Assembly (NCBI GenBank): GCA_009760885.1
Contig: CM019703.1
Span: forward strand, 11,796,459-11,860,458
Direction of reading: 5' to 3'
Length of the DNA stretch: 64,000 nucleotides
From: Achatina immaculata
Lineage: Eukaryota > Mollusca > Gastropoda > Stylommatophora > Achatinidae
Position numbers and translations under genes: made by a program. Under the pieces are notes generated by a model. The model made no database searches and was not told the origin of the DNA. It was given only the letters and a program-made list of their open reading frames with translations. Shown here piece after piece: positions 9,001 through 60,933 of the stretch; position 1 is the first letter of the stretch, and every line of letters starts with the position of its first letter.

Positions 9001-12000
9001 TGACAGATAATGTTGGTTATGGTCACCATTCTATGATGGTAGGCAGATGATCTCAATGTAGGGACAATGGCTACGATCAATGACTAGTACAGTCACTGCC
9101 CGGAAGGAAAGCAATGGTAAACTATCTTCTGGAAATATACCAAGAAACCCAAACAGCAATCATGGAAAGTCAAATAGGGAAAAGATCTGGCGGTGAGTCC
9201 CCCAGGCCAGATAGATCTAATTTTAACACTGGGGAAGAGTGTGAGGCAGAGGTCAGTACTAGTAATTGTGATGACAGACAAAAGCCTGACGGTGTTACCA
9301 AGGAAAACTCCTGCACCAAACTAAAAAGAAAAATAAGAGTAGGAACATGAAATGTAAGAAGTATGTATGAGGGAAAATATCAAGTAATAAGTGACGAGAT
9401 GAAAAGAATGGAGATACACATTTTGGGAATCTGCGAACATCGATGGAAAGGATCAGGACACTTTAAGAGCGAGAATGATAATATCTTTATATACTCTGGT
9501 GGAGAAGTAGGAGGAAAGAATGGAATGGCTTTTTATTTGGACAAATCAACATCAAAAGCATTACTAGGCTACAATCCAGTAAGTGATAGAATCCTAACAA
9601 TCAGACTTAAGGGCATTCCTAGAAATGCAACAATCATTCAGATATATGCACCTACATCAGCAGCAGAAGAAGAGGAAGTAGAAAACTTTTATAACACCCT
9701 GCAAATGACAATAGACCAGGTATGGAAAAATGATATTGTATTAATAATGGGTGATTTTAATGCAAAAAATGGTACAGAAAGAGCAGAAGACGAAGGACAT
9801 GTTGTAGGGAAATTTAGCATAGGACATAGAAATGAGGCAGGTGACAATCTAATGGCGTTTTGCATGGAAAATGAGCTAATGATCGCTAACACACTTTTTA
9901 AACAACATCCAAGAAGACTTTACACATGGACATCACCTGATAGTAAAACCAGGAATCAAATAGATTACATTTTAGTGCAAAGAAGGTGGAGATCAAGTAT
10001 AACATCAGCAAAAACTTTACCAGGTGTTGACTGTGACACGGACCATGAATTATTAATAGCAGACATGAAGATAAAGATAAAAAAGACAGTTACGGGATCA
10101 AGACCACTCCGCTTTGATCTTACAAATATACCAGAACAATACGGTATAGAAATGAAGAACTGTTTCGAAATCCTGATGGCTGTACAGGAGGAGATGACAC
10201 CAGATGAATTGGCTATGCAGGCCAAAGATATCTTAATAACAACAGCTAAAGACATGGTTCCAGTAAAGAAAACACAAAAGAATGGATGGATTACAGCAGG
10301 TACACTAGAACTGATAAAATAAGGTAGATAGAGGTGTATGGTGCAGTTTTACAAAGTGAGGGAGGAAGTGAGCAAGGTGAGAAAAAAACGAATATAAAGT
10401 ATGAGAATGTATAAATGAAAAACATACAACATCCGATAGTTCGGCGTGAGCCTTATTCGAGGATACATGCAAAAACAAAATACAAACATATATAACTTAT
10501 CTGAAGCGTCTTGCTCTCAGCAAAGCGGAAATGTGTATGGAAGAAGGAGGAAAAAAAAAAACGTTGCCTACAGACAAAAGATTCCCGATATAGCCAATCA
10601 TAGCGAAGATGCGGAGAGAGAGAGGAGGAGAGCAAGTGGGAGAAAGGGGTTGGGGGAAGGCAATAGAAACATGATATCCGCTAGAGGTGTCGGGGGGGGG
10701 GGGTGGGTGGGGGGAAAGGGGAGAGAAAAGAGGACGCGAGAGATAATGAATGAAGAACTTAAACGCCTACAAGGAGGAAATGTACAACTGGTGAATGGGA
10801 CAAGACCAATATGTTGGCAGAGAAAGAAATGAGATGGTGGTAGGGAGGGGTAGCATAGAGAAAGAAATTAGAGTATAAAAAAGACCAGTGGAAAAATAAA
10901 GAAGTTACAGAAAGCTGAAGACATTGTTAATTCCAGCTGGGTGGAGACAGCCAGTCTGGAAAATAAGGCGCTGTTCTAGGACCCTCCGAGATAGTACATC
11001 TGCGGAACAAGAGCGGATCGCACTAACCGAAACGTCCTGTTTGCCCCTGTGGTTACCAAGGCAAAAATGTTTAGCCACAGGTGTCCAGGCCCTCTTAGAA
11101 ATATCATTGAGATGCTGGCGAAATCGATCTCCTAACCGTAAGCCAGTTTCCCCTATGTACTTCAAACCGCAACGTTTGCACATGATAACATAAATGACAT
11201 TTCGTGAAGTGCAGGTGAAACCCTCCTGTACCGACAACGTGGATTTAGGGAAAGAGATCTGGCTGGCCTCGACAACAAACGGACAAGTGTTGCATCTGCG
11301 GCGTCCACAACGTCTGGTACCATAAAAAGTGCCATCTGTCTTAAGATGACTACGAATTAAAAGGTCCCTGAGGTTTTTGTCACGTCTGTAAGCCACCAAT
11401 GGGGGTTCCCCAAAAAGTTCACGTGTCTCAGGCTCGGTCTGGAGGAGATGGAGATGGCGAAACAGTATGTTTTTAACTACCAAGCTATGGGGGTGGTACG
11501 TGAGTACTAGTTTCACCCTGTCCGAGCTACAGTGCGGTTTAGGGGTGAGGGCTTGTTGCCGCGATGTGTGACTAATGCGGTTCCAAGACGACGAGAGAAC
11601 GTGGTCTGGATAGCCGCGTTGACGGAAGAAATCTAGTAATTTGTGGCCTTGATCCTGGAAATCCAAATCCTCCTTACACAAACGTCGCAACCTAAGAAGC
11701 TGGGAAAAAGGAATAGAGTCCTTACATGATCTGGGATGGGAGGAAGAGATAAGTTATATATGTTTGTATTTTGTTTTTGCATGTATCCTCGAATAAGGCT
11801 CACGCCGAAATATCGGATGTTGTATGTTTTTCATTTATACATTCTCATACTTTATATTCGTTTTTTTTCTCACCTTGAAAAACTAATTATGTCAGTCCGT
11901 AAGAACAGCGAAGAGCAGAACCTCTATCTTAATGCAAAGAAAACTAAATTGATGACAACTGACAGAACAAACAAGACAACTGAAATATATATCAATGAGG

Positions 12001-13279: not shown

Positions 13280-13971
13280 CTGCAAAGTACATAATACATA
13301 AACATTTGGTGTCAGTAGCTAAAAGCATAGGGGAAAAAAGATAAAAAGTGATGTAATGTCTTAAATAGTATAATATGAACAGGTATGAAATATATGAGCA
13401 GTCTTCTTGGTTTGGTAATCAGTTTGATAGGTATTCTTCTCAAGCTTATAAGATAAAAGTTGGATTGGTAATAGGCTACATTCAATTGTTATCCTAACTT
13501 CCCAGAGTGGATCTATGTCTATCATTTTTATGTTTGCAAATTATCCCGATTCCTGAAGCAAAGAGTCAGGGCAGCATTTTCGGCTGAGGATGTAGAGTCG
13601 AGGTCTGAAGTGCCATTAGGGTAGGGTTTTTAACTAAAGATGTGTGGGTGATGGCACTGTATTGCCTGACATGGTTGCACCAACATTGGTGAACCATAAC
13701 AAACCAAGTCCCACCTTTCTATTTTTTCTTTCAGCAACAGGTCCAGCCTGGCTAACGGGTCACTTTGGTGATGGAGTCTGCTAGAGAAGTATTATGCCCT
13801 TCCTGCTTTTTATCTGTGCACAGACTGAAAAAAAAGTCATTATAACCTGCTCCCCATTCAACCTGATGTGCCTCATCTTCATAGCTCTGGCTACAAAGAA
13901 CATCATCTCACAGTTCCAGGGAGATTGAACTATCAGGGATGTGGAGTCTGAAGTAGACAAGATCTTTCCTG
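13280..13971. other. Non-coding, unrecognised DNA upstream of HMGB exon
   Basis: No credible frame or known repeat recognised. The upstream HMGB intron occupies at least its start. Confidence 0.4.
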
Positions 13972-14876
13972 GGAGTTGAGGTCTCTCCTTCTTCTTCGTT
14001 CGCTTCTACCACCAAGACTGCCCTGTGATTCTACTGAGTTTACCCCTTTGGTCCTCTAAAAGTCCTGTGGTCCCCAAAGGACCACACAAGGTCCCCGAGA
14101 GGACCACAAGAGGTTCAGAGTATCGTACGGTTTGAGCCTGTATTCTTGGTGGGTCTCTGAAGCGGGATTGCCTGACACCGTGGTTTTCGCTGCACCAGTG
14201 TGAACTAGAGTTGAACTTCTCACCGGAAGACCTCGGCGTGTTTTAAGATACCCGCGTATCACCGTTGGGTGAGAGGTGGTTGCCCATCCATTCCGACATT
14301 GGACTTTCTCACCGGAAAACCTCAACGTTATTAGGATACGCATACATCCCCGCCGGGTGAGAGGTGGTTGCCTGTCTAGACTGCACTGGTCCAGTGTCTC
14401 CGACTTCAGCATTTTGTGGTCATGGCCGCTACCCTTCCTAGTTGTGACCAGGACGGAGCTTTTGTTCAGGAGGACATATCCTCGCCACTAGTGACTTCCA
14501 CCCCTGGGTTGAGCCGGTTTAGGCATATTGACCCAGTTTGGGCGTGTTTAGGACATGACTGACCTCTGGAGCAGAGGTACCGTGACATGCGTAGCCATCA
14601 AGTTTCACCCCTGGTTTAAGCCGGTTTAGGCATATTTTACCAGTATGGGTGTATTTCAGACGTGACCGACCTCTAGAGCAGAGGCGCCGTGGTATGGGTA
14701 GCTCTCATCGCAATACTGCTGAACATACCGATTAAGCTTCACTTTATCCTTTCCATCACCTTTTTTTTTTACATCGGCGCCACACAGCAACCCTGATTGC
14801 TTTTCCACATTTTCTTCCTTGGCCGGGAGGAGCTTCACTCCACGCGCGGCTCCGAAGAATCTCGCCAACAGTGTGA

Positions 14877-15097
14877 TTTTGAACCAATAAAAGCGCTCTT
14901 TCCATGAGGGTCGGAGCTTGGTAAGCATGTATTAGCTCTAGAATTGCCACAGTTATCCAAGTAGGATCATGTCATCTAAGGAACCTCGACTGATTTAATG
15001 AGCCATTCTCGGTTTCACCGTGAGACAGTGTGAACTTAGACATGCATGGCTTAATCTTTGAGACAAGCATATGACTACTGGCAGGATCAACCAGATA
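14877..15097 (-). rRNA. 18S rRNA 5' end fragment (about 220 nt) within the chimeric retroelement
   Basis: Reads CTGGTTGATCCTGCCAGTAG from the start of 18S rRNA, then GTCATATGCTTGTCTC, AATGGCTCATTAAATCAGT and TAGAGCTAATACATG, and stops after GCGCTTTTATTGGTTCAAAA, about nucleotide 220 of the mature rRNA. A few substitutions from the universal sequence are visible (for example GAGAATGG for GCGAATGG). It is a pseudogene segment, not a functional rRNA gene, because the rest of 18S is replaced by element body. Confidence 0.93.
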
Positions 15098-15574
15098 GCT
15101 TTCTTCAGCGAACCTTAGTCGGATATCTGCCGACAGACCGACCCGAGGCAAGGGAGTGCTCTGCTCAGGGCGGATCCCTTTTGACCCCGGTGGCGTTTTA
15201 TTTCCTTTAACCGGTGGGGGCGGCCGGCGGCTCTCTCTGCTCTAGCGAACGAGAAGAAAGCCCAGCCACCCACAACCAATGCACATTACATACTGCAGAC
15301 CCGATACTCTTTGCGAGAGATGGGCCAATTTCGAGACCATCAGTCGACAAAACCGTAGTACACCGTTAGCACGAACCTGGCTGGCTAGCCTTTTACATGC
15401 TTCACTCGACCGACAAACCACTTGCTTCTGCATCGAAACACCTTAACTCTCGCCATCATAAAGGGAGCGAAAGCCTGTCTCCCAACGCACGGAACTCAAG
15501 AGCGCTTTTTCGCCAAAAGAACGGTCGGCCTGCGCAACAGCAGCAGTCGGTGCTGTGCAGCTCGCGCGGCTGAC
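15098..15574 (-). other. GC-rich head of element A, probable 5' external transcribed spacer of rDNA
   Basis: This segment lies immediately upstream of the 18S start in the order expected for the 5' ETS, and is much more GC-rich than its surroundings. Element B carries the same head (28761-29055) without the 18S part. That it is this species' ETS is inference from position; no reference ETS is available here. Confidence 0.6.
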
Positions 15575-15585
15575 GGAGTTGAGGT

Positions 15586-16450
15586 TTAAGTAAATAATCA
15601 AAATGATTCATAGAGTCTGAAGAAATGAATTGGGATAGGGTTTTCAGCTGAGTTTGTGATGTCAGTATCTGAAGCAAAAAAGTTAGGATATAGTTTTTTT
15701 GCAAAGGATTTCGATGTAGAAATGTACCATTTATGAATGAGTTGATGATGAAGAGAGGAAAAACAGAAAAGTCAAACCCTGAAGCAATTTTGAGAGGAGC
15801 TGGTTGAAATTCTGCATTTATATAAAAGAGTGAGATGGTAGAAAAATAGATGTTGTAGGCTTGGTGTAAGGAGGTATTATTCACTGATTTCCTCCACTGT
15901 CAACCTCTCTTAAGCAATCACATCAGTTCTGCCATTAACATAGCAATAATCTTAAGTTTCACTTAAAAGCAAATAGACTATTAATGGTAAACCCTGCTGC
16001 ATGTCAAATTTTAAGTACTCAATGCTGTATTAACAAATCCAGTATTTCAAACCCATACAAGGTGAAAGACAACTATATTGATTTTTCAAAATCCTAGCAC
16101 AATCACTGTAACAGCCAGTGACCCACTGCTTACTGTTTGCATCTGGACTGGTGAACCATAGTTGACCAAGATCCTATTCTACACTCCAGTGGTGTCCCTG
16201 GAAAAAGCTGTCTGGCTATATAAATAGTGATATTAAAATGAAGATGAACACGGTCTCATTATATGCTGCAGCCAAAATTGCATGTTTTCGGCCAAAAGGA
16301 GCATAACTGTGACACAACACAACCAATACCATTTTGAGGCTGAATAATGGAAAAGGAAACGAGTCAGTGCAATCCATTCTCAGAATCTGACATGGCGCCC
16401 ATGTTTCAGTATATCGGCTACATTGACTGCCAACAGCATCCAGCTGACAA
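15586..16450. other. AT-rich DNA with no recognised gene
   Basis: Short spurious frames only. Pieces around 15630-15730 resemble 13560-13640 in word order (GATAGGGTTTTCAGCTGAG-like), hinting at an older repeat that copy A split or that is locally duplicated. Confidence 0.35.
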
Positions 16451-17530: not shown

Positions 17531-17662
17531 ATATGCCCCCTATTCTCATTGCATGTCTTATGAAAGTACATTGTCTCTCTCTTATCTTTTTGACAAGGTT
17601 TTTGTCTCTCCAGCTCTTCTCATACATTCTTCATTAGTTATTTTTGCTGTCCAGGGGATTCG

Positions 17663-18658
17663 CTACATTCTTCTAACAAACCACATTTCTGCTGCTTCCA
17701 ATGATTTTTGTGCAAACTTGCCTATTGTCCATGATTCACTTCCATATAACAAAATAGGTTCAATGTAGCATTTTAGGACTCGTTTTCTAACATTCATTGA
17801 TAAGGATGTGTTGGATAATATGTTTCTGATTCTCTTAAATGCAGTCTTTGCTTGGCTTATTCTGTTCCTAATTTCTGTTCTGCATTTTCCATCTGAAGTT
17901 ATTACTACTCCAAGGTATTTGAATTTCTGCACCTGCTTTAGAATAGTTCCATTCAATTTTATACTGCATGCTGGTGGATTCTGTTTCTTAGATATAACCA
18001 TAGTCTCTGTCTTTTTGATGTTCAAAGTAAGACCTTTCTGTTCACTTTCTTTGGCGACTTTATCTAAGAGACTTTGCAGGTCTTGTTGGTTCTCAGCTAT
18101 CAGTACTGTGTCGTCAGCATACCGAAGGTTGTTAATATTGTATCCTCCAATTTGCATGCCTGGTTCTGTGATGATCGTTCTTATAATATTCTCGCTGTAC
18201 AGAGAAAAAAGGTCTGGAGATAGTACACATCCTTGTCGCACCCTTTGTTTTATAGGTTGATATTTTCCAGTTCTATTTTCAACTCGAATTGCTGCTTCTT
18301 GCTGCCAGTATAGATGTTTTACAATCCTCTGGTCTTTGTCGTCTATATTGATGTCTTCAAGCATTTTAATAATTTCATTATGTTTCACCTTATCGAATGC
18401 CTTTATGTAATCAATGAAGCTTAAGTAGAGATCTTTCTGTACTTCTAAAGCTCTTTCTGTTAGTGTTCGTAAAGCATAAATGGCACTGTGTGTTCCCTTT
18501 CCTTCAACAAATCCAAACTGTTCATCTGCTATTTCCATTTTTATCTTTTTCCTTGTTCTTCTCATAATGATTCTCAGAAGTAGCTTTGTTATGTGACATG
18601 AGAGGCAGCTGACAGTCCGGTGGTCATCACATTCCTTTGCACCTGGTTTCTTTGGCAA
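17663..18658 (-). CDS. RTE reverse transcriptase domain, 331 codons open
   Basis: Copies LINE RNA into DNA at the target nick. The open frame runs from PKKPGAKECDDHRT through [50 protein letters not shown] (catalytic YADD), KKTETM, FKYLGVVITSDG and EPILLYGSESW. All core palm motifs are present and uninterrupted. The N-terminal Met is internal to the element's polyprotein, and the last segment ends at a stop around 17663 just before the 3' zinc-finger-like end. Lack of an intact endonuclease makes the copy non-autonomous. Confidence 0.85.
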   Translation of the reverse strand: MPKKPGAKECDDHRTVSCLSCHITKLLLRIIMRRTRKKIKMEIADEQFGFVEGKGTHSAIYALRTLTERALEVQKDLYLSFIDYIKAFDKVKHNEIIKMLEDINIDDKDQRIVKHLYWQQEAAIRVENRTGKYQPIKQRVRQGCVLSPDLFSLYSENIIRTIITEPGMQIGGYNINNLRYADDTVLIAENQQDLQSLLDKVAKESEQKGLTLNIKKTETMVISKKQNPPACSIKLNGTILKQVQKFKYLGVVITSDGKCRTEIRNRISQAKTAFKRIRNILSNTSLSMNVRKRVLKCYIEPILLYGSESWTIGKFAQKSLEAAEMWFVRRM

Positions 18659-19223
18659 TGCTATAAACGTGGATTTAATCAGGTCACTGGGAATATAACC
18701 ACTGTTGTAAATGTCATTCAGTAACTTGGTTGTTATTATTTTTATTCCTGTCTCCTCTAGTGCCTCTATTTTCTTCTATCATTATATCATCAGGCCCAGT
18801 CGTTTTTCCTTTCTTCATGTGTTTGATGGCATCTATGATTTTATCTTCAAGTATTAGTGGTCCATCACAGTCTTCAGTATCTGGTGTTAATTCTGGTCTT
18901 TCTCCTCCATACAGCTCACCGATATACTCTGTCCACAATGTCTTCTTTTCCCATTAACATTTTACCTTCTTTCGATTTCAGGCATCCTGTGGTATATTTT
19001 GTTTTCTTGCCTGTGAGTTCACTAATTCGTTTATGCATGTTTTTGCTGTCTTTAATATGAGAGTCCTCTATCTGTCTGCACTGTTCATTTAACCACACTT
19101 CTTTTGCTTCTCTACATTTGCGTCTTATTTCTTTATTTATCTGGCTACATTTTTCCTCGTTATTTTTACTTAGTGGTTAATGAAAAAAATTCTAATGTCT
19201 TCATATATCCTTGCATTGAAGTT

Positions 19224-20790: not shown

Positions 20791-21602
20791 CAAATTCAAA
20801 AATGTCCTATCCTGTGTAAAAAAAATCTCAGCAAAAACTAAATCTGATGTTTCAATCTTGTCAGTTTTCTTGCACAAAATGATATTTGAGCTAAGAATTT
20901 TTCGTAAATTTATCTCTTGCGGTCTAGCTGGCAGCAATAAAAATAAGTTTTTGCGGATGTCGTCTTTCCAACTTCATGCCCGTTGAGAAAACATGGCGTT
21001 CTTTAGCTTTGGTAAATGCCGGGCAGGTCAACTTTTGTTTTCAATCCATGCGTGAAAAAAGCACAGAAAACTAATACTAAATATAAATCAGTTAGCCAGT
21101 CCTATCCTGTGTAAAAAAATCTCAGCAAAAACTAAATCTGATGTTTCAATCTTGCCAGTTTTCTTGCACAAAGTTACAAAATTAACTGTTTTATTTGTTA
21201 TTTACATGAAGAAAAAAAAACACCAATTAATTCAGGTTGTTATCACTTCATATCATTAATTATTTTCCATATACTTTACATAACTAAAATATGAAATTAA
21301 AAATGATAGTTATATACTGTATGCACACACATACACACACACATCAATGAAGCCGCATATTAAAAGAAATTGTACTATAAATATTCTCTTGTTTAATATT
21401 CCCTAACTGACTGTACAAGTTTAAATAACTTATGTAGAATACAACATGTTATTTCATTTCTAGCTTGACAGAAGTATACAAATTCATTCGCAAACAGGAT
21501 TTTAATAGAGGCAAATTTTTAAAAATCAAAATTGGGTCATGGATAACGTGCTGCAACAGTGTAAGAATACAGAAGAATCAAGTATCTAGCCAACTACAAA
21601 TC

Positions 21603-21603
<1 letters not shown>

Positions 21604-21675
<72 letters not shown>

Positions 21676-21676
21676 C
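21604..21676. repeat. (TA)n plus poly-T microsatellite in satellite copy 1
   Basis: About 28 TA dinucleotides followed by about 16 T. The same site in copies 2 and 3 has only a few TA units, so this is the most expanded allele of the array. Confidence 0.95.
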
Positions 21677-22811
21677 ATTTCGTTTCATCTCACAAAAAAA
21701 TGTGAACACAGAATACACAGCCTTGCTTTCACTATGGCCCTAGTGTGTAGCGGGTAAGTTCGTGCCGTGCTTACGTCTGCTACTTACTCAGCACGTCTGA
21801 ATGGCGGGCAACCAAACACCCCGGGCTAACAAACGACCTCAAAACCTGCTTCCCAATGTCAAATAACCGGCCAGTTTTATCGAGAAATCATCAATAAACA
21901 ATCCATCTACGTTTGTCTTATGTTTACATGCTGTTAAATTTTACTGGATGGTCCAAAAAGTACACATCTATGAGGTCATCACTTCCAACTGTTTAGCTAC
22001 AAGCAAGGTTTTATCATTGGGTCTACGGCCGTCCTACGTCCTCAAAAGAAGCTTGGCTTGTAGTAACGGTTTGGTACTGTGAAAACAGATGCAGGCCCCG
22101 TAATTCACAGACCGACTATAAATGATCTGTAGATTTTACTGACTAAAAACTTAAAACTCTTTCAAAATGATATTTGAGCTAAGAATTTTTCGTAAATTTA
22201 TCTCTTGCGGTCTAGCTGGCAGCGATAAAAATAAGTTTTTGCGGATGTCGTCTTTCCACCTTCATGCCCGTTGAGAAAACATGGCGTTCTTTAGCTTTGG
22301 TAAATGCCGGGCAGGTCAACTTTTGTTTTCAATCCATGCGTGAAAAAAGCACAGAAAACTAATACTAAATATAAATCAGTTAGCCAGTCCTATCCTGTGT
22401 AAAAAAATCTCAGCAAAAACTAAATCTGATGTTTCAATCTTGTCAGTTTTCTTGCACAAAGTTACAAAATTAACTGTTTTATTTGTTATTTACATGAAGA
22501 AAAAAAAACACCAATTAATTCAGGTTGTTATCACTTCATATCATTAATTATTTTCCATATACTTTACATAACTAAAATATGAAATTAAAATGATAGTTAT
22601 ATACTGTATGCACACACATACACACACACATCAATGAAGCCGCATATTAAAAGAAATTGTACTATAAATATTCTCTTGTTTAATATTCCCTAACTGACTG
22701 TACAAGTTTAAATAACTTATGTAGAATACAACATGTTATTTCATTTCTAGCTTGACAGAAGTATACAAATTCATTCGCAAACAGGATTTTAATAGAGGCA
22801 AATTTTTAAAA

Positions 22812-23683
22812 CATGGGACCCAACTAGGGTAACACAGGTATTGACTGGGTACATGGGACCCATCTAGAAGATCTTGATTTTGCTGATGACATAACTCTTA
22901 TCAGTAATAATGTGAATTCCATGCAAGAAAAAACAGATAGCCTGTCTTCACTGGCTAGCAAATTAGGACTTGAAATTAACAAGGACAAAACAAAAATAAT
23001 GAAAATTCCCATCAATCAAAATGGAAAAATACACATAGAAGGGACAGATATTGAAGAAGTCAATCAATTTGCATACCTTGGCAGCTACATAGACCAGGAT
23101 GGTGACACTAGAAAGGAAGTTAGGATCAGAATTGCAAAAGCAGCATCAATCTTCAAGAATCTTGAGAACATATGGAATTCAAAAGTTATAAGCACAAAAA
23201 CCAAGTTAAGACTATTCAATTCAAATGTAATATCCACCCTCATTTATGCATGCAAAAGCTGGAAAACAACTAAAGAAATAGAAAAGAAATTAGACTCTTT
23301 TGAAAACAAATGCCTAAGGAAAATACTCGGCATCAAGTGGAATGAATTCAAGAACAATGCAGAGATAAGACAGATGACTGAACAACAACCAGTCTCATGG
23401 GTGATCAGGAAAAGGAGATGGACATATGTTGGTCACTTGATGAGAAGAAATGATCAGAGAATCCCAAAACAAGGTATCAAGTGGAACACAACAGGCCGAA
23501 GAAAAAGAGGCAGACCGCGTGAAACTCTGAAGAGGACATTATTAAGAGAGGCCAAGTTAACAGGCATAAAATCCTTTGTTGAGGTTGAAAGACTCGCCGA
23601 AGACAGGAAAAATTGGCGAACTACTTTGCGAGCCCTATGTGACGTCTAACGGCACGGGAAGGATATAAGATATAAGATATAAG
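22812..23683 (+). mobile_element. Young 5'-truncated LINE inserted in satellite copy 2
   Basis: Flanked by a perfect 12-bp duplication AAATTTTTAAAA (22800-22811 and 23684-23695), present once in the empty sites of copies 1 and 3. The 3' end is GATATAAG repeated. The body is about 97% like 52860-53700. The 5' end is rearranged: a CATGGGACCCAACTAG piece precedes GGTAACACAGGTATTGACTG, although it lies downstream in the source. Confidence 0.93.
22869..23649 (+). CDS. LINE reverse transcriptase C-terminal part, open frame
   Basis: In frame from LEDLDFADDITLISNN (FADD catalytic box) through KTKIMKIPINQNGKI, NQFAYLGSYIDQDGDTRKEV, LIYACKSW, RKRRWTYVGHLMRRNDQRIP and GRRKRGRPRETLKRTLLREA to ALCDV-stop. 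No interruptions in about 260 codons, unlike older copies at 38013, 41590 and 49795. It cannot act alone because the fingers and endonuclease are missing. Confidence 0.85.
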
Positions 23684-26353
23684 AAATTTTTAAAAATCAA
23701 AATTAGGTCATGGATAACGTGCTGCAACAGTGTAAGAATACAGAAGAAGCAAGTATCTAGCCAACTACAAATCGTATATATGTATATTTTTTTTTCATTT
23801 CGTTTCATCTCACAAAAAAATGTGAACACAGAATACACAGCCTTGCTTTCACTATGGCCCTAGTGTGTAGCGGGTAAGTTCGTGCCGTGCTTACGTCTGC
23901 TACTTACTCAGCACGTCTGAATGGCGGGCAACCAAACACCCCGGGCTAACAAACGACCTCAAAACCTGCTTCCCAATGTCAAATAACCGGCCAGTTTTAT
24001 CGAGAAATCATCAATAAACAATCCATCTACGTTTGTCTTATGTTTACATGCTGTTAAATTTTACAGGATGGTCCAAAAAGTACGCATCTATTAGGTCATC
24101 ACTTCCAACTGTTTAGCTACAAGCAAGGTTTTATCATTGGGTCTACGGCCGTCCTACGTCTTCAATGGAAGCTTTGCTGGCAGTAACGGTTTGGTACTGT
24201 GAAAACAGATGCAGGCCCCGTAATTCACAGACCGACTATAAATGATCTGTAGATTTTACTGACTAAAAACTTAAAACTCTTTCAAAATGATATTTGAGCT
24301 AAGAATTTTTCGTAAATTTATCTCTTGCGGTCTAGCTGGCAGCGAGAGAAATACATTTTTGCGGATGTCATCTTTCCACCTTCATGCCCGTTGAGAAAAC
24401 ATGGCGTTCTTTAGCTTTGGTAAATGCCGGGCAGGTCAACTTTTGTTTTCAATCCATGCGTGAAAAAAGCACAGAAAACTAATACTAAATATAAATCAGT
24501 TAGCCAGTCCTATCCTGTGTAAAAAAATCTCAGCAAAAACTAAATCTGATGTTTCAATCTTGTCAGTTTTCTTGCACAAAGTTACAAAATTAACTGTTTT
24601 ATTTGTTATTTACATGAAGAAAAAAACACCAATTAATTAGGTTGTTATCACTTCATATCATTAATTATTTTCCATATACTTTACATCACTAAAATATGAC
24701 ATTAAAATGATAGTTATATACTGTATGCACACACACACATCAATGAAGCCGCATATTAAAAGAGATTGTACTATAAATATTCTCTTGTTTAATATTCCTA
24801 ACTGAGAGTACAAGTTTAAATAACTTATGTAGAACACAACATGTTATTTCATTTCTAGCTTGACAGAAGTATACAAATTCATTCGCAAACAGGATTTTAA
24901 TAGAGGCAAATTTTTAAAAATCAAAATTGGGTCATGGATAACGTGCTGCAACAGTGTAAGAATACAGAAGAAGCAAGTATCTAGCCAACTACAAATCGTA
25001 TATATATATATTTTTTTTCATTTCGTTTCATCTCACAAAAAAATGTGAACACAGAATACACAGCCCTGCTTTCACTATGGCCCTAGTGTGTAGCGGGTAA
25101 GTTCGTGCCGTGATTACGTCTGCTACTTGCTCAGCACGTCTGAATGGCGGGCAACCAAACACCTCGGGCTAACAAACGACCTCAAAACCTGCTTCCCAAT
25201 GTCAAATAACCGGCCAGTTTTATCGAGAAATCATCAATAAACAATCCATCTACGTTTGTCTTATGTTTACATGCTGTTAAATTTTACAGGATGGTCCAAA
25301 AAGTACGCATCTATTAGGTCATCACTTCCAACTGTTTAGCTACAAGCAAGGTTTTATCATTGGGTCTACGGCCGTCCTACGTCTTCAATGGAAGCTTTGC
25401 TGGCAGTAACGGTTTGGTACTGTGAAAACAGATGCAGGCCCCGTAATTCACAGACCGACTATAAATGATCTGTAGATTTTACTGACTAAAAACTTAAAAC
25501 TCTTTCAAAATGATATTTGAGCTAAGAATTTTTCGTAAATTTATCTCTTGCGGTCTAGCTGGCAGCGATAAAAATAAGTTTTTGCGGATGTCGTCTTTCC
25601 ACCTTCATGCCCGTTGAGAAAATCTGGCGTTCTTTAGCTTTGGTAAATGCCGGGCAGGTCAACTTTTGTTTTCAATCCATGCGTGAAAAAAGCACAGAAA
25701 ACTAATACTAAATATAAATCAGTTAGCCAGTCCTATCCTGTGTAAAAAAATCTCAGCAAAAACTAAATTTGATGTTTCAATCTTGTCAGTTTTCTTGCAC
25801 AAAGGTACAAAATTAACTGTTTTATTTGTTATTTACATGAAGAAAAAAAAACACCAATTAATTCAGGTTGTTATCACTTCATATCATTAATTATTTCCCA
25901 TATACTTTACATCACTAAAATATGAAATTAAAATGATAGTTATATACTGTATGCACACACACACATCACTGAAGCCGCATATTAAAAGAGATTGTACTAT
26001 AAATGTTCTCTTGTTTAATATTCCCTAACTGAGAGTACAAGTTTAAATAACTTATGTAGAATACAACATGTTATTTCATTTCTAGCTTGTGTTTTCAATT
26101 CAGGCGTTAAAAAAGCGCAGAAGACTAATACTAAATATAAATCAGTTAGCCAATATCATTATTAATTTTTACTTTGAAAAAAGTGTTCGTACGACAAAAT
26201 AATTTAATATAGAAGCAAAACAATGCAATCTACCTTGATGTTATGCTGTAAACTCCTTACTGGCAAAGCCTTGAAAATCGACGACACGCCAGTTCGTCTA
26301 GCAGCGGCCTAGTGAATCGACTGTGAATGATTTCATTGGTTAGTTTTGTATTC

Positions 26354-28085: not shown

Positions 28086-30664
28086 CGAATAACTTTAATA
28101 AATCAACCAATCATTTCCTTTGCGGAGCTTTGCCTCCCTAGCAGCTATCCTGTAGGCCTCTCGGTTGTAAGAAAGATGCCCTGCTGCTGATGCATCCATT
28201 TGCAGATCATCAACGATGTCTTGCAGCCATCTTCGCCTTGGCCTTCCTCTCTTTCTTTTTCCTATTATGTACCCTTCTAAGACGGTCTTCTCTAAATTAT
28301 CATGACGTTTAATATGTCCACAATATTTAAGTTTTCTTTGTTTAATCTTCCTGACTAGCCAACCTTCATCAATTTAAGTTCTTGTAGTGTGGATACATTT
28401 ATGACATTTGAAGAACTCTTCTGTAGCATTTACATTCAAAGGCATTTATGTGTTTATCAGCTGTTTTGTTAAGTGTCCAGGTCTCACAGGCATATGTTGC
28501 AATGGGAAAAATGCATGCCCCTAAAAATCTTATTTTTATAGTTGTGTCTGTTCCTCTCCACAACTTCTTTAGTTGTTTTACTTTTTGAAGAGCGATAAAT
28601 GTTCTCCTTTTAATTTCCCTCATCCGTTATTAGTCAGTAATAATGCAAGATATTCACAACTCTCCACTTCTTCCAATTTTTCCTCATTTTATGTATTCCT
28701 TATGTGTTTTGTCGGTTGTCATCAATTTAATTTTTTTCGCATTAAGTTGGAGGTTTTGCTGGCTTTCGCTCCCTTCCCGGACGGCGAGAGTTAAGGTGTT
28801 TCGATGCAGAAGCGAGTGGTTTGTCCGTCGAGCGAAGTATATAAACGGCTAACCAGCCAGGTTCGTGCTAACGGTGTAGTACATTTTTGTCGACCGATGG
28901 TCTCGAAATTGGCCCATCTCTCGCAAATAGTTTCGGGTCTGCAGTATGTAACGTGTGTTGTTTGTGGGTGGCCAGGCTTTCTTCTCGCTCGTTAGAGCAG
29001 AGAGAGCCGCCCCCGCCGGTTAAAGGAAATGAAACGCCGCCGGGGTTGAAAGGGATCCGCTCACTGTTGGCGAGATTCTTCAGCTGCCGTGCGTGGAGCG
29101 GTGCTCCTCCCGGCCAATGAAGAAAGGTTCAAATGGGGTTGCCGCGCAATACCACTGCGGAAAAGATGGCAGAAATGATAAAGCGAAACAAACAGTCAAA
29201 TCATGGCACCTCTGGTCTGGAGATCGGCCACGTCCTGAGTGCAGTCATATCGGGTGAAAAGCATGAACCGCCTTGTCCCAGAGGTTAAGACACTGCTGGC
29301 GAGACTCTTCGAATGCCGCGTGTGGAGTGAAGCTCTTCCCGGTCAAGGAAGAAACTGCGGAAAAGAAATAAAAGTTGCTGTGCGGCGCCGACGTGAAAAG
29401 GTGGTGGAAAGGATAATGTGAAATTTAATCGGTATGTCCAGTAGTATCGCTGCGAGAGCTACACATACCACGGCGCCTCTGCTCTAGAGGCCGGCCACGT
29501 CCGAAATACACCTACACTGGTGAAATTTGCCTAAACCGGCACACACCAAGGGTGGAACTTGATGGCCAGACATGTCATGCCACCTCCGCTCTAGAGGTAG
29601 GTCACGCCTGATATACACCCATACTGGTGAATTATGCCTAAACCAGCTCACACTAGGGGTGAATCTTGAAGGCTACGCATGTCATAGTACCTCTCCTCTA
29701 GAGGTCGGTCACTTCCCAAACAAGCCCATACTGGGTCAATATGCCTAAACCGGCTCAACCCAGGGGTGGAAGTCACTAGTGGCGAGGATTCGTCCTCCTG
29801 GACAAAAGCTCCATCCTGGTTACAACTAGGAAGGGTAGCGGCCATGACCACAAAATGCTGAAGTCGGAGACACCGGACCTGGGCAGTCTAGATAGGCAAC
29901 CACCTCTCATGTTTGCATATCCTATTCACGCTGAGGTTTTCCAGTGAGAAAGTCCAACTCTGGACTGGATGGGCAACCACCTCTCACCCGGCGGTGATAC
30001 ATGGGTATCTCAAAACACGTCGAGGTTTTCCGGTGAGAAGGTCCAACTCTGGCCTGGGTTGACTACCATCTCTCACCCAGCGGGAATGCACCGATATCCT
30101 AAACACGTCGTGGTCTTACTGTGAGAAAGTCCAACTCTAGACTAAACTGGTGCAACGAAAACCACGGTGTCAAGCAATCCGCTTCTGAGACCCACCAAGA
30201 ATACAGGCTAAAGCCCTGAAATACTCTGAACCTGTTGTGGTCCTCTCGGGGATCATGTGTGGTCCTTTTGGGGACCACACAGGAAACCACGGGACCTAAC
30301 GAGGACCACAGGCATAAATTCAGTATGATCACAGTGCGGTCTTGGTGGTAGAAGCGAATGAAGAAGAAGAAGAAGAAGGTTTTGCTCTTCACTATTCCTA
30401 CGGACTGACATTAATTAGTTTTTCCATTCTTTTTTATGTTGTGGAGAGTAATACTGTGTCATCAGCATATCTAATCTCAGGTATTTCATAACCTCCAATT
30501 GTTATGGCATCGTAATGTTCTTTGTCTACATTTTCTCTAACATTCCTCATTATATTTTATTTTCAGTATACAAGTTAAATAAGTAAGGTGACAGTATGTA
30601 ACCCTGATAGACCCCTTGTTTTATGTCAAACCAAGTTGTTGTTTCACCATTAATTCTTACTTTA
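28086..30664 (-). mobile_element. RTE copy interrupted by chimeric element B
   Basis: The antisense RTE C-terminus at 28110-28750 is split and resumes at 30387-30664, where the YADD region (TCATCAGCATATCTAATCTC) and QGV.QGY.LSPYLFNLYTENI can be read. Joining the halves across the insertion matches 48760-49640 collinearly. The tail is decayed. Confidence 0.8.
28761..30376 (+). mobile_element. Chimeric rDNA-headed retroelement, copy B
   Basis: Flanked by AGGTTTTGCT (28751-28760, 30377-30386) within an RTE copy. It starts at GGCTTTCGCTCCC, about 105 bp inside the head of copy A, and carries the ETS-like head to about 29055. It then passes directly from GGGATCCGCT to CACTGTTGGCGAG, lacking the 18S segment of copy A. 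The segment after the junction is present twice (29058-29250 and 29285-29480), followed by 110-bp and 90-bp repeat blocks, the GGTCC/GGACC stem and a (GAA)n tail. Divergence from A is visible but modest. Confidence 0.82.
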
Positions 30665-31639
30665 TTCACTGGGAAAGCGTCCTTGAACTGGGCTGTCCGG
30701 ACCAACAACCCTGTCAGCCGTCATACTATCGCTACAAAGTCCAAAAAGAAGAAATCTCTCCCCCCCCCCCCAGGATTTACCGAAAAGGGGAGGGGGATAA
30801 TAGATTCACAGGTGACTACGGTAACGGCCATGCCCGCCCCAATTAATTCGACTTAAGAACAGCGGATGGATACTCCATGTTCAAGAAGGCACATGAATCA
30901 GAAATGGAAGGACTAAGACATGTTTGGCAGCATTTAAAATACCAACACAATGCCTTTGCAGAGCTGAAAGACTATGTAAAAGGAAGAGAGAAGCCAGATA
31001 CGCAAGAGAGAAGTTCTACAGAGATCCCTTCGGGTTTGCCAAGCAGTTATTTGAACAGCCAAAATCAGGTACGCTGAAAGCAGGTAAGGAGGTGCTCGGG
31101 GAATATCTGAGTAAGACATACTCTGATAAAAATCAGCATATACCTCTCGAATAGATGAAAGGTCTAATGTGGCCCTGTGCACCAGGCAGCAAATTCAAAT
31201 GCAGCCCACCAACCTCACAAGAAGCAGAGTATCGCAGGAAAAGCTAAAGGCAAGTCAGTACCAGGCCCAAATGGCGTCCCTTACATACTATACAAAAGAT
31301 GCCCCGAAGTACTAAAGAAGCTCCATAAACCCTTACGAACAGCATGGACCAAGGGACTCGTAAGTAAAGAATGGAAAAAGGCTAATGGAGTATCCCAGAT
31401 GAGCAGAATTCCACCGAAATCAACCAGTTCGGATCAATCTCACTTTTGAATGTGGAAGGAAATATATTCTTCTCCGTGATGGCAAGGAGACTAACAACAT
31501 ACCTCCTAGATAATTGTTACGTTCATATATCCGTTCAGAAGGGATGAATTCCAAGTTCCCCAGGATGTTTCGAGCATGCTTCAGTGATCTAGCAAGCTAT
31601 TCAACAGGCAATATTTGGAAAGCAAGATTTACATGTAAT

Positions 31640-32400
31640 ATCGCTTGACCTAGTCAATGCGTATGGCTCAGTACCGCACCAGATGATGTGGCTAGCACTG
31701 GACATGTATCATGTGCCAAAAGAAATCACGAAGATGCTGAAAATGTACTTCACATGGTTCCTCATAAGATTTGGAACATCAGGATATATTACAAGATGGA
31801 TTGAGCTCCAGGTAGGAATTGCAGTGGGCTGTACAATACCTCCCATACTGTTCGTAATAGCCATGTAAGTGATCATGAGAGAAGCAGGAGCAGCAGAAGG
31901 CCCAAGGTTCAGAAATGGATGTCAGATGCCACCATTAAAAGCGTTCATGGATGACACAACAGTAATAACAACCAGTGAAGCACAGGCACGAAAGATGTTA
32001 GAGCGTTTGGATAGCCTCATCATATGGTGCCGCATGGGCTTCAAGCCAAAGAAGATAAGAAGCCTGTCATTCATAAAGGGAAAAGTGATAGAAAGATCGC
32101 ACACAGAGGCAAATAAAATAATCCTAACTGTAGGGGAAGAGCCAGTGAAGAGCCTTGGCAGAGTATATGATGCTTCCATGAAAGACTCAAACGCGGTGAA
32201 GCATGTCATAGAAATGGCACAGAATGGACTGAACATCATAGATAAAAGCAGGCTACTGGGGAAGTTCAAAATATGGCGCCTCCAGTTCATACTGATTCCA
32301 AAATTGATGTGGCTACTACTCATTTACGAAGTAAGTACCAGTATAGTAGAGGCAGTCAAAAGAAAGATAAATAAATCCATAAGAAAGTGGCTGGGCGTAC
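31640..32400 (+). pseudogene. Reverse transcriptase core of the FMDD LINE
   Basis: Palm motifs DLVNAYGSVP, GCTIPPILF and FMDDT are legible; a TAA after FVIAM (31866-31868) and the break at 32402 prevent expression. The 200-codon frame 31869-32471 contains the FMDD box. Confidence 0.75.
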
Positions 32401-32401
32401 C

Positions 32402-32948
32402 GGTTCTAAGGACTGTTATTGCCGGAGGTGGAGTGGAGAATTCGATCTCCATACCAATCAGGGCAGTCTAGATAGGCAACCACCTCTCACCCGGCGGGGA
32501 TGTATGCGTATCCTAATCACGCTGAGGTTTTCCGGTGAAAAAGTCCAACGCTGGACTGGATGGGCAACCACCTCTCACCCGGCAGTGATACATGGATATC
32601 TCAAAACACGTCGAGGTTTTCCGGTGAGAAGGTCCAACTCTGGCCTGGGTGGGCTACCACCTCTCACCCAGTGTGGATATACTGATATCCAAAACACGTC
32701 GAGGTCTTTCAGTGAGAAAGCCCAACTCTAGACTAAACTGGTGCAATGAAAACCACGGTGTCACGCAATCCCGCTTCTGAGACACACCAAGAATACAGGC
32801 TCAAGCTCTGAAATACTCTGAACCTGTTGTGGTCCTCTCGGGGATCAGTGATCACACGGGGGACCACGAAACTTAACGAGGACCACGGGCGTAAATTCAG
32901 TAGGATCACAGGGTAGTCTTGGTGGTAGAAGCGAACGAAGAAGAAGGA
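32402..32948 (+). mobile_element. Chimeric rDNA-headed retroelement, copy C (5'-truncated)
   Basis: Flanked by a perfect 12-bp duplication GCTGGGCGTACC (32390-32401, 32949-32960) inside the FMDD LINE. The last 490 bp (from GGGCAGTCTAGATAGGC) match the 90-bp repeats, stem and (GAA)n tail of copies A and B. The first about 59 bp have no counterpart in A or B and look like a foreign 5' patch. Confidence 0.88.
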
Positions 32949-33721
32949 GCTGGGCGTACCACCAGGATTAACTGATATAGCACTATATTGCAAGAAAAAG
33001 GAAACTGCAGCTACCATTCAAATCTATAGTCGAAGGATACAAAGTAGGAAAGACAAGGCTTGCAATGATGTTACAAGAATCTGCAGATCCGGTGGTACGA
33101 GAACCAACACTTAAAACTGGACGAAAATGGAAAGTAAGTGAGGAAGTGACCACAGCCAGGGAAAAACAGGGGCTTAAAGAAGTAATAGGATACACTCAGA
33201 CAAGGGGATTTGGTCATGATGAAATCAAAGGTGGTCAAAGGCCTCCTGTAAGGAAAGAAGGGATATGATCATCAGCGAAGTAAGGAATTCAGAGGATGAC
33301 AAACGGGTCCAGAAGGCAATCCAACAGGCACAGCAAGGTCGATGGACAACATGGGAGGAAGTCCTGCAGAGATCACTAAAATGGAATGACATCTGGAAAA
33401 TGGCACCCTTGAGACTCAGCTTTATCATCAGAGCTACTTATGACCTTCTGCCTACAAGCTCCAACCTATACAAATGGGGTGTATCAGAAGACACAAATTG
33501 CCATCTCTGAAATGAAAGGCAAATATTGGAACATGTGCTGTCAGCATGCAGAGTATCATTAGGTCAAAGACGCTACACCTGACGGCACAACAGAGTGCTG
33601 CAGGAACTAGTAGCCATTGTAGACAGGGCAAAAGATAAAGCAAATAACACCAAAAGAGTTGAGGTCCCACCTAAATACTTCATAGTTGCTGGTACGACAT
33701 CGAATATTGAAATCCCTTATC

Positions 33722-48540: not shown

Positions 48541-49645
48541 AAGCTGTGAATCTATATTTATCCTTTATAGACTACTCAAAGGCATTTGATTGTGTACAAC
48601 ACCAGAAACTTTGGGAAATAATGGAAAAAATGGGATTTCCAACACATTTGATACAATTAACATCACTGCTGTATCTAGACCAACAAAGCAGTAGTAAGAA
48701 TAAATGGTGAAACAACAACTTGGTGTGACATAAAACAAGGGGTCCATCAGGGGTTCATATTGTCACCTTACTTATTTAACTTGTATACTGAAAATATAAT
48801 GATGAATGTTAGAGAAGATGTAGACAAAGAATATTATGATGCCATAAAAATTGGAAATTATGAAGTACCAGAGATTAGATATGCTGATGACACAGTATTA
48901 TAGTCCACAACACAAAAAGTAATGGAAAAACTAATTATGTCAGTCTGTAAGAACAGCGAAGAGCAACACCTTTATCTTAATGCAAAGAAATCTAAATTGA
49001 TGACAACTGACAAAACAAACAAGGCAGCTGAAATATGTATCAATGAGGAAAAACTGAAAGAAGTGGAGAGTTTTGAATAACTTGGATCACTACTAAGTAA
49101 TAATGGAGATACAATGAGGGAAATTAATAGGAGGACGTCTATCGCTCTTCAGAAAGTAAAACAAATAAAGAATCTGTGGAGAGGAACAGACAAAACCACA
49201 AAAATAAGGTTTTTAAGGGCATGCATCTTTCCCATTGCAACATATGCCTGTGAGACCTGGACACTTAACAAAACAGCTGAGAAACACATAAATGCCTTTG
49301 AATGTAAATACTATAGAAGAGTTCTTCAAATATCATAGACACAAGAACAAATATATCCACACTACAAGAGCTTAATATTGAAGAAGGCTGGCTAGTAAAG
49401 AGGATTAAAGAGAGAAAACTTAAATATTTTGGACACATTAAACGTCATGATAATCTAGAGAAGACCATCGTGGAAGGGTATATAATGTGAAAAAGAAAGA
49501 GAGGAAGACCAAGGCGAAGATGGCTGCAAAACATCGTTGATGATCTGCAAATGGATGCATCAGCAGCAGGCCATCTTGCTCACAACCGAGAGGCCTACAG
49601 GAAAGCTGTTAGGGAGGCAAAGTTCCAAAGGGCATGCAAATGAAT
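48541..49645 (+). pseudogene. RTE reverse transcriptase copy with (TGAA)n tail
   Basis: Reads DYSKAFDCVQHQKLWEIMEKMG, YADDTVL then stop, [60 protein letters not shown] and GRPRRRWLQNIVDDLQM to the tail. 5'-truncated at the finger/palm region; several stops and a frameshift. Confidence 0.82.
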
Positions 49646-53714: not shown

Positions 53715-55177
53715 CTACCTACCTTGTGGAATGGTCCAAGTGAAGTGCTGATAGCCTAGCAAAAAGGAGGACAGAAACTTTAAATAGGCTTGTCTCAGTC
53801 TGGAGTATGTTGCTTTCTCTGTTACCTGCGTAAATATAATTTTGCCACGTAAGTATTGTACAGTGGGTCTAAAAAGTTCTTGTGAGAAATAAATAGCCTT
53901 TAGTAGCTAGAAAATTGAACATTTTAATCTATGTTGATGATATAGAAGCAAGTTTGGATTCTAATGACCATAAACAGTAGTATTAATAACATTCAGGGCT
54001 GAGTTTAGGGCATGCTCATTGTGCGTAATGACTGACAGTGCTACTTCTTCTTGCTTGAGATTGATTGTGGTGATGGTCTGCATGCGAGCCAAGGGAGAGA
54101 AGAGAAAGACAGAAATTTAAAGATAAAAACTTTTACAAGTTACAGTAACTGATCTGACAGTCAAGCATGAAGTAATATAATTAGTAATGTGTGGGGGAGG
54201 TTAATTATGTGTATATGAAAGGTTGCATCGCATATGAACCCATTCTACGCGGCAGTAGTAATATAATTTGCTAAAATTATTGTGAAATTTAGCTACGATT
54301 TTTTTGTTCAAACGTCAGTACGTTTTTTAAGCCAAGGTTATTTCTTTAAAAAAAATATTGGAGAAGTCTGAGATTTGTATTCTAGTTTTCTTTATTTGGT
54401 TCCATAACATAACTTTATAAACATTGACAGTGTAATTTTCATATCTACTGCCACTGGTAGCCAGTTTCCATAAAATTACTTAAAATTAAACAAGATAACT
54501 GTCCTCCAGCCATGCGATAGAGCAAGGTTGGTGCCGTTATTCTGTTTTCTAACAAATAGGTATAATTCGTTTGATTCACACAAAGGAAGATCGATATTGT
54601 ATTAAAGGTCTTTACAGTATTGAATGGAAGTTGCACATTTTCTGATATGGTTTCGTTTTCTGTAATTTGTCATGCCTGAGACAATTCGCGCGCCATTTAG
54701 ATTCATTCGTCGAGAGGAATGAACTGTGTGTAAGTGTATTATTATCGGTATTTAGGTCTGTGCAAACAGCTTTTTAAAATCTTCACAGCCGAAATAAATA
54801 CCATAATATGGTATCACAGTATTAGGAATTAATTTGATGTATTTTAATGATATCATCACAGATCCTGATGTTACATAACTGTAACGGAAATATAACTTTA
54901 CATTTTCAATACTGAAGTTAGGTTTATGTACTGCTGTCTGAATTATGAAAGAAAACAGCTGCATTGAAGTATAAAACGACAGTTCAGTTTAAAAATTAGG
55001 ATAGATTACACCTTTATGAAATTACAGATCCGTTAGAGAAGAGTAAAATTATTTCAGTGAGATCTCTTCGGAGATAGCTCAAAGGTGATGTTCTTGTAAA
55101 TTATATGATCTCATCTATATTCACGTAGTCAAGAAATGATAGACTACCAGCAAGAAGGGTAAATTTGTCGAGCATTT
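53715..55177. other. Intergenic DNA upstream of the GPCR
   Basis: AT-rich, no gene or repeat recognised. Presumably includes the GPCR promoter and any 5' UTR exon, but no TATA box or initiator stands out with confidence. Confidence 0.4.
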
Positions 55178-56265
55178 ATGGAGGAACAGATCATGAATGA
55201 ATACAGCAGAAGATGTTTTATCGTTTACTTTGCAATCATTTTACATGGAACGCTGGCGTTCGTTGGCTTCATGAGCGGTATCGTCAACACAGTTGTCTTC
55301 TTGAAACTTGGAATAAAAGATAGTATGAGCTTGGCGTTGGTGGCTCTTTCACTGTCCGACTGTGTGGCGGCTTTTGTTCAGATATTTCTGTGTGTTTTGA
55401 AGGCAGTCAACATAGCTTACCCAGACATTCATGTAAACGTGAAAGGAATGGAAATCATAAGATTCGTCGCCTTTTCCAAATATACAATTTATTTTGTGTC
55501 AAACTGGACGGTCGCATTTATAACCCTAGAAAGATGTTTTTGTATTATTTTTCCTTTTAGTGTTTACCAAATCTTTACAAAACCCCGTTCCCTGGTTTAT
55601 CTTTCTCTGATCAACATCATCCACTACGGCTGTCGTATTTCTATTAACATAACACAAAAACTAGAACTAATTCAAGTCGCGGTTAATACGCCCATGAGTA
55701 TGAATAAAACTTACTTTACAGGAACACTGACAGCGGTGTATTCTCCAGGTGCAAGAACTGCTGATATAATCGTCAACGCGATGGAACTGTTCAGTTTGTT
55801 GGCTTCACAAAATATTATAATTTGTTGCACAATCTTGATGATTCGTGGAATGAAAAACTTGTCACACGTTAGACACACTCAGTCCACTGACCCCATAATG
55901 AACAAATTCTTAAAAAATTCTCCGGAAAAAGAACATCCAAACCAGAGTCTAAACTTTCCGTTCGAGAACGAAGATTGGTCAAGATGGTAGTGTTTCTTGC
56001 CTTGTACATCTCATTTTGCAACATTCCAAGTTTCCTTGTCGGATCAGTGTACCGTAGTGTTCGGGAACTGTTCATGGACAAGTACACAGATGTGGAAGAA
56101 ACTATGTTCGAAATTGTGAGCTTCTTTAATACACTTTCCTTATCCATGAACTTTTTAATATATATCAGACTAAACACTGCATACAGAAACATGTTCATGG
56201 CACTTTTATGTTTCCGTAGAAGCAACGAAACTGAACCTCGAGCTAATACTAATAGGCTGAAATGA
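55178..56265 (+). pseudogene. Gastropod chemosensory-like GPCR (7TM), intronless, one frameshift
   Basis: Class A-like receptor of the plasma membrane. Frame one (55178-55990) encodes TM1 (about residues 14-42), TM2 with LSLSDCVAAF (48-75), TM3 ending ITLERCFCIIFPF (ERC in place of DRY, 100-125), TM4, a second extracellular loop with a possible NKT glycosylation site, and TM5 (205-230). The frame then closes at a TGGTAG, while an overlapping frame carries SVRERRLVKMVVFLALYI (TM6), a TM7 ending SMNFLIYIRLNTAYR (NPxxY-like) and the C-terminus to 56265. The switch falls near the A-run at 55910-55916, consistent with one missing base: recent pseudogenisation or an assembly error. Intact length would be about 360 residues. 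The ERRLVKMV block is typical of the expanded receptors annotated as chemosensory in sea slugs and snails; ligand unknown. Confidence 0.82.
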
Positions 56266-59790: not shown

Positions 59791-60438
59791 GTGGTCTTTC
59801 AATTGGCCCCGAGTGGCAACGATTACTGATTCACGACTCGGACTTCATGTTCATTCATTCATGAGCCCTGTTAACCACTCATTCATTCATTTGCATGTCC
59901 CTTGCAGAACTTTGCCTCCCTAACAGCATTCCTGTAGGCCTCTCGGTTGTGAGAAAGATGGCCTGCTGCTGATGCATCTATTTACAAATCATCACCAATG
60001 TCTTGCAGCCATCTTCGCCTTGGTTTTCCTCTTGATCTTTTTCCTTCTATTTTTCCTGTTGTTATAATATTTTCAATGCCCCCTATTCTCATTGCATGTC
60101 CTATGAAAGTACATTGTCTCTCTCTTATCTTTCTGACAAGGTTTTTTTGTCTCTCCAGCTCTTCTCATACATTCTTCATTAGTTATTTTTGCTGTCCAGG
60201 GGATTCGCAGCATTCTTCTAATACACCACATTTCTGCTGCTTCCAATGATTTTTGTGCAGACTTGCCTATTGTCCATGATTCACTTCCATATAACAAGAT
60301 AGGTTCAATATAGCATTTTAAGACTAGTTTTCTAACATTCATTGATAAAGATCTGTTAGCTAATATGTTTCTCATTCTCTGAAATGCAGTCTTTGCTTGG
60401 CCTATTCTGTTCCTAATTTCTGTTTTGCATTTCCCATC

Positions 60439-60933
60439 TCAAGTTATTACTGCTCCAAGGTATTTGAATTTCTGCACCTGCTTTAGAATAGTTCTGTTTA
60501 ATTTAATACTGCATGCTGGTGGATTCTGTTTCTTAGATATAACCATAGTCTCTGTCTTTTTGATGTTCAAAGTAAGGCCTTTCTGTTCACTTTCTTTGGC
60601 GACTTTATCCAAGAGATTTTGCAGGTCTTGTTGGTTCTCAGCTATCAGTACTGTGTTGTCAGCACACCGAAGGTTGTTAATATTGTATCCTCCAATTTTT
60701 ATTCTTGGTTCTGTGATGATTGTTCTTAGAATATTCTCGCTATACAGAGAAAAAAGGTCTGGAGATAGTACACATCCTTGTCGCACCCCTTGTTTTATAG
60801 GTTGATATTTTCCAATTCTATTTTCAACTCGAACTGCTGCTTCTTGCTGCCAGTATAGATGTTTTACAATCCTCAGGTCTTTGCCGTCTATACTGATGTC
60901 TTCAAGCATTTTAATAATTTCATTATGTTTCAC
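60439..60933 (-). pseudogene. RTE reverse transcriptase palm with altered catalytic box
   Basis: Reads [20 protein letters not shown] and [17 protein letters not shown]: the catalytic YADD is CADN, so both the Tyr and the second Asp are lost. Otherwise close to 17663-18658. Confidence 0.85.

Follow-up and report, generated by a model that had tools for sequence, protein, structure and literature searches.

According to the available portions of the cited reports, template jumps in Drosophila connected the 5' ends of R2 elements with U12 snRNA or tRNA, so that a cellular RNA in sense precedes the RNA of a non-LTR element within one insertion, and one such jump may have founded a subfamily; the partners in those chimeras are small stable RNAs and the targets lie in rDNA (PMC3414825). 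Chimeras of 28S rRNA and L1, ascribed to ligation or template switching, carry an rRNA fragment of 50-482 nt, mostly in sense, at the 5' side of a LINE-derived insertion with a TSD, and the terms "18S" and "external transcribed" are absent from the main text of that report (PMC13174262). Among the rRNA-headed SINEs, SINE3 bears a 5S head, and SINE28 and MeloSINE bear the 28S 3' end; these elements are non-autonomous and non-coding, with an rRNA-derived part, a 3' tail and a TSD, and their chimeric structure is uniform in the parts of the reports available (PMC8010984, PMC7245038). The SIDEs of R2 are likewise non-autonomous and tied to the rRNA transcript, and they occupy 28S target sites and carry a self-cleaving ribozyme (PMC3414825). 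No report of a retroelement headed by 18S or by the 5' ETS was found in the accessible open-licence literature, which is no proof of absence.

Three copies (A, B and C) of a retroelement that shares features with all of these systems were found in the window, i.e., the whole 64-kb stretch of DNA that was analyzed. In contrast to the R2 chimeras, the insertions combine an unprocessed pre-rRNA-like 5' piece with a non-coding body, dispersed targets and TSDs of 10-12 nt. The 28S fragments of the L1 chimeras are replaced here by the 18S 5' end and an upstream leader, and the body is non-coding and not LINE-1. Unlike the uniform SINEs, 18S was present in one of the three copies and the leader in two, and no Pol III promoter was found; neither the 28S target sites nor the self-cleaving ribozyme of the R2 SIDEs was seen. 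Relative to the known chimeric retro-insertions, the novelty lies in an apparently unprocessed pre-rRNA as the partner and in a junction that recurs. The features of the three copies are listed in Table 1.

Table 1. Positions of the three element copies and their parts in the 64-kb window.
Feature	Position	Strand	Remark
Copy A, whole element	13982-15574	-	between two GGAGTTGAGG copies
Copy A TSD, 5' side of the element	15575..15584	.	GGAGTTGAGG on +
Copy A TSD, 3' side of the element	13972..13981	.	GGAGTTGAGG
Copy A leader, GC-rich, 477 nt, probable 5' ETS of pre-rRNA	15098..15574	-	unbroken joint with the 18S 5' end
Copy A 18S rRNA piece, first ~222 nt (final 2 nt ambiguous)	14875..15097	-	Rfam RF01960
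Copy A body with a fixed start at its 5' end (ACACTGTTGGCGAGA), two repeats of 107 nt, two of 88 nt and the 3' hairpin	13999..14874	-	
Copy A GAA-rich tail	13982..13998	-	reads GAAGCGAACGAAGAAGAAGGAGAGA
Copy B, whole element	28761-30376	+	
Copy B TSD AGGTTTTGCT, 5'	28751..28760	.	unoccupied paralogous sites near 48962-48972 and 11914-11923
Copy B leader, corresponds to copy A 15475-15170; without 18S and the 72 nt that precede it	28761..29061	+	
Copy B body unit 1: additional, diverged 5' body segment with one 107-nt-like repeat	29062..29289	+	29209-29295, E=2.5e-5
Copy B body unit 2: complete body, beginning at ACACTGCTGGCGAGA, with three repeats of 107 nt, three of 88 nt and the 3' hairpin	29290..30359	+	
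Copy B (GAA)n tail	30360..30376	+	
Copy B TSD AGGTTTTGCT, 3'	30377..30386	.	
Copy C TSD GCTGGGCGTACC, 5'	32390..32401	.	
Copy C leader, 59 nt, origin not found	32402..32460	+	
Copy C body, truncated at the 5' end, with three 88-nt repeats and 3' hairpin; GAA-rich tail	32461..32948	+	
Copy C TSD GCTGGGCGTACC, 3'	32949..32960	.	

The sequence-only reading of this DNA had described a TSD-bounded unit in which a GC-rich head runs in register into the 5' end of 18S rRNA, followed by a repeat-rich body and a GAA tail, and copy A was found to have this structure. The 10-nt TSD occurs on its strand only at the two flanking positions in the 64-kb window. The match to Rfam RF01960 reached 87.4 bits (E=1.8e-23), by which a chance similarity to 18S was rejected, and it was recovered in a whole-window run at the gathering threshold (E=4.8e-15). 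Model position 4 falls at 15094, so that 18S position 1 lies, by extrapolation, at 15097; the match extends over ~222 nt and ends near 14875, the remaining Rfam alignment being low-confidence body sequence. The composition of the leader (GC 55.8%, CpG o/e 1.01) and of the body (GC 51.9%, CpG o/e 0.71) was compared with that of the whole window (GC 37.9%, CpG o/e 0.45). The 18S piece departs from the Rfam model in 2 of 88 strongly conserved columns, and this favors a recent capture; 57 of the 134 less conserved columns also differ, and these we read as lineage differences. A decay of 10% was excluded for this piece (P=0.005), and decays of 5-6% were compatible with it (P=0.18 and 0.10). Short diverged direct repeats (13565-13644 and 15629-15658) were observed, one on either side of copy A, which indicates that the copy sits in an old repeat.

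On three grounds the leader of copy A is read as 5' ETS: it meets 18S without a break precisely at the 5' end of that rRNA, it is rich in GC, and copy B carries it as well. It is thus very probably the 5' ETS of a pre-rRNA, an assignment drawn from the joint, with rRNA identity itself observed for the 18S piece only. The leader of copy B (about 300 nt) is 88% identical to that of copy A over the aligned 15170-15475. It begins 99 nt downstream of the start of the copy A leader, the first 99 nt of which are absent; the 5' ends therefore vary, and that of copy A may itself be truncated. With this offset, the proposal that the element starts at the pre-rRNA initiation site is unsupported. The leader of copy B joins the body 72 nt before the expected 18S start, no 18S is present, and one extra T (perhaps TC) at the junction is assigned to neither leader nor body. 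Copies A and B each hold two RNAs in sense within one TSD pair, the leader being taken as rRNA from its joint with 18S.

The body start motif was the same at 14874 in copy A and at both of its positions in copy B (29062 in unit 1, 29290 in unit 2), and it was preceded by 18S nt ~222, by the ETS-like leader and by body sequence, respectively. Three junctions with a shared body start and different upstream partners are what the joining of other RNAs to one with a defined 5' end would produce. Unit 1 of copy B (29062-29289) has the start and one 107-nt-like repeat in common with unit 2 and is strongly diverged from it; it may be an old duplication or, alternatively, a different body subfamily. 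Between copies A and B, the leader differs at 30 of 299 sites and the body at 89 of 698 (Fisher p=0.24), the body sum covering four of the eight A-B body comparisons, as the others are alternative repeat registers or 88-nt repeats.

Copy C showed no match to the leader of copy A or to 18S and no recognizable rRNA, and its own 59-nt leader had no above-chance similarity to A, B or the rest of the window. No Rfam match at E<=1 was obtained in 28700-33000, where copies B and C lie. Profile searches of the window located the leader at two places and the 3' end at three; a fourth 3'-end match was the hairpin of copy B on the opposite strand. The head is therefore not uniform among the three copies, with leader and 18S in A, the leader only in B and an unrelated leader in C. 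The earlier view of a fixed unit of ETS, 18S and body found no support on this point, since 18S occurs in A only, B joins the leader to the body elsewhere and C has neither. The view that B and C make this a family was upheld in part: a dispersed, TSD-flanked retroelement family was found, with the leader in A and B, but B lacks 18S and C lacks recognizable rRNA.

The TSDs of A, B and C differ (10, 10 and 12 nt), and as each copy has its own, the three are separate insertions. Among 20,000 random pairs of junction windows, matches of at least 10 nt occurred at a frequency of 0.00035 and 12-nt matches at 0.0002. Copy B lies inside a dispersed repeat, and its two flanks join into a form that is seen unoccupied at the two paralogous sites given in Table 1 (the flanks match over 62-65 nt with 83-86% identity, and in the shortest case over 48 nt with 90%); with this joined site, the leader was rejected as a part of the interrupted host repeat. 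Copy C splits an RT-like frame, and its joined site reads through for ~11 residues before the degenerate copy shifts frame. This host is a degenerate retroelement (30690-33700, + strand); its ORF had no Pfam match, and the RT label is our presumption from an FMDD motif. Distinct TSDs and disrupted host repeats indicate that the copies are retrotransposed units and not segmental duplicates; duplication of a single locus was rejected for the three copies seen, given their different TSDs and the location of B and C inside different repeats.

The 88- and 107-nt repeats are not multiples of 3 and no protein relative was found, so the body was taken as non-coding; its longest ORF (143 aa) had no homolog at E<=0.001 among 11 candidates. 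SINE-type traits were present, namely TSDs, GAA tails and no visible coding capacity. In copies A and B, the 3' part forms a long hairpin that closes immediately before the tail (z=-2.38 with 2 of 200 shuffles as good in A; z=-3.48 with 0 of 200 in B), and the body 5' end showed no unusual fold (z=0.38; 135 of 200 shuffles as good). Across A, B and C, both sides of the hairpin changed in 2 of 50 pairs and the covariation term was unfavorable (+1.56); covariation thus gives no support for a conserved fold. A partner LINE with the same 3' end was not found in the window, where only the three copies' own 3' ends matched, and exact-pattern searches of viral contig and genome contig collections gave 0 matches to related rDNA or body copies.

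Pairs resembling A and B boxes numbered 3, 1 and 1 in A, B and C, against shuffle means of 1.4, 1.7 and 0.5, so that copies A and B show no excess and copy C, by count, a slight one (1 vs 0.5). One of these, a weak pair, recurs in each copy at an equivalent 3' position. TTTT runs occur inside the transcripts (5, 4 and 2 in A, B and C). On these A/B-box counts and internal runs, a Pol III head was rejected as unsupported. No Rfam ribozyme was matched at E<=1 in 13950-15600 or 28700-33000.

Several other elements were observed in the window. The spellings of the 18S piece and of the retroelements suggest an animal host, perhaps a mollusc. An RT-coding LINE is present twice (17533-19170 and 60076-61700; 93.5% identical), with an RVT_1 match at 17663-18775 (E=3.5e-37). 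Nested tandem copies at 20875-26089 are 93-99% identical over 0.6-1.9 kb and have one end near an RT fragment (22828-23649). The 282-codon ORF at 10905-11753 (- strand) contains a GIY-YIG domain (Pfam PF01541, E=1.9e-5), and we take it to be the end of a Penelope-like element. Of two ORFs at 55163-56265 (+ strand), which by eye we presume to resemble a seven-helix receptor, the first had no Pfam match and no protein match among 857 candidates.

Copying or joining accidents, and not a new ribosomal-RNA-driven family, are the most likely origin of these heads. More specifically, we see an even chance that a non-coding retroelement, mobilized by a LINE, acquired unprocessed pre-rRNA at its 5' end on two or more occasions, either through a template jump or through ligation of RNAs. 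The body, as a non-coding and non-autonomous retroelement, would then owe its insertion to target-primed reverse transcription by the machinery of a putative LINE partner, which would recognize the 3' hairpin and the GAA tail. Its RNA would have a preferred 5' end at (A)CACTGYTGGCGAGA, where cDNA or RNA would have been joined to unprocessed pre-rRNA, at 18S nt ~222 in copy A and inside the 5' ETS, 72 nt before 18S, in copy B. Copying would have gone onward to the pre-rRNA 5' end, stopping at different points in A and B; the joining by template jump or ligation and its nucleolar place are presumptive steps. Against recurrent joining, leader and body show like divergence, as a single inherited chimera would also give, and two captures of the same leader among only three copies would be frequent for accidents, three copies being few. 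Moreover, the extra T or TC at the copy B junction could be a remnant of an 18S-body joint left by a deletion. The same three observations would fit a fixed chimeric lineage, in which a single capture made ETS-18S(222)-body, with a subsequent loss of 295 nt (the ETS 3' part and 18S) in copy B and of body unit 1 in copy A; a precedent is offered by one R2-U12 jump that was suggested, in the available part of the report, as a subfamily founder (PMC3414825). However, the deletion in copy B must then end within ~2 nt of the body start, for which the chance is ~0.003 (a rough value for one fixed point in 1592 nt with uniform endpoints), the 18S of copy A has decayed little (2/88), the leader brings no known promoter, and copy C has neither leader nor 18S. 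We consider such a lineage doubtful. Two further points count against recurrent joining, namely the compatibility of the 18S piece with 5-6% decay and the lack of a LINE partner in the window.

It is unlikely, in our estimate, that the body resides in rDNA units, at 18S nt ~222 and in the 5' ETS, and that chimeras made by Pol I read-through were occasionally inserted elsewhere by a LINE. Differing rRNA junctions, an intact body 5' end and in-register sense pre-rRNA upstream are what read-through would produce, and R2 and its SIDEs depend on co-transcription with 28S, as stated in the available part of the report (PMC3414825). Nevertheless, two rDNA insertion sites would be required, no rDNA was seen, and all three insertions lie outside rDNA in unrelated targets. 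The unremarkable fold of the body 5' end (z=0.38) also weighs against this origin, as does the finding that neither A nor B matches an Rfam ribozyme at E<=1. The ETS identity of the leader being unproven, the leader could instead be some other RNA joined by serial template jumps exactly to the mature 18S 5' end, since a jump off mature 18S would break at precisely this point (15097/15098). Copies A and B would each require a jump onto one and the same other RNA, and the ETS covers both with one RNA; this explanation is highly improbable.

The promoter of a Pol I unit is located around +1 and in the sequence upstream of it, so that a retrocopy starting at or after +1 would not carry the promoter, and Pol I drive would in that case need sources resident in rDNA. 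A Pol I-driven family is unsupported. It seems quite improbable that the rRNA unit serves as an expression system, with rDNA-resident bodies or a pre-rRNA-headed master transcribed by Pol I and the chimera inserted genome-wide by a LINE. To our knowledge, no Pol I-driven dispersed SINE-like family has been described earlier, and this one would be the first if that reading were true.

The 5' ETS is short-lived and is present only in nucleolar pre-rRNA. Should the leader indeed be ETS, the insertions would document an encounter of unprocessed pre-rRNA with LINE reverse transcription, or with an RNA ligation that preceded it, in two of three copies within 64 kb. If a fixed head or an rDNA-resident source proved true, a Pol I route would exist for a dispersed element. 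Genome-wide counts of the junctions would bear on the nucleolar passage of the element RNA or RNP and on how retroelements gain new heads.
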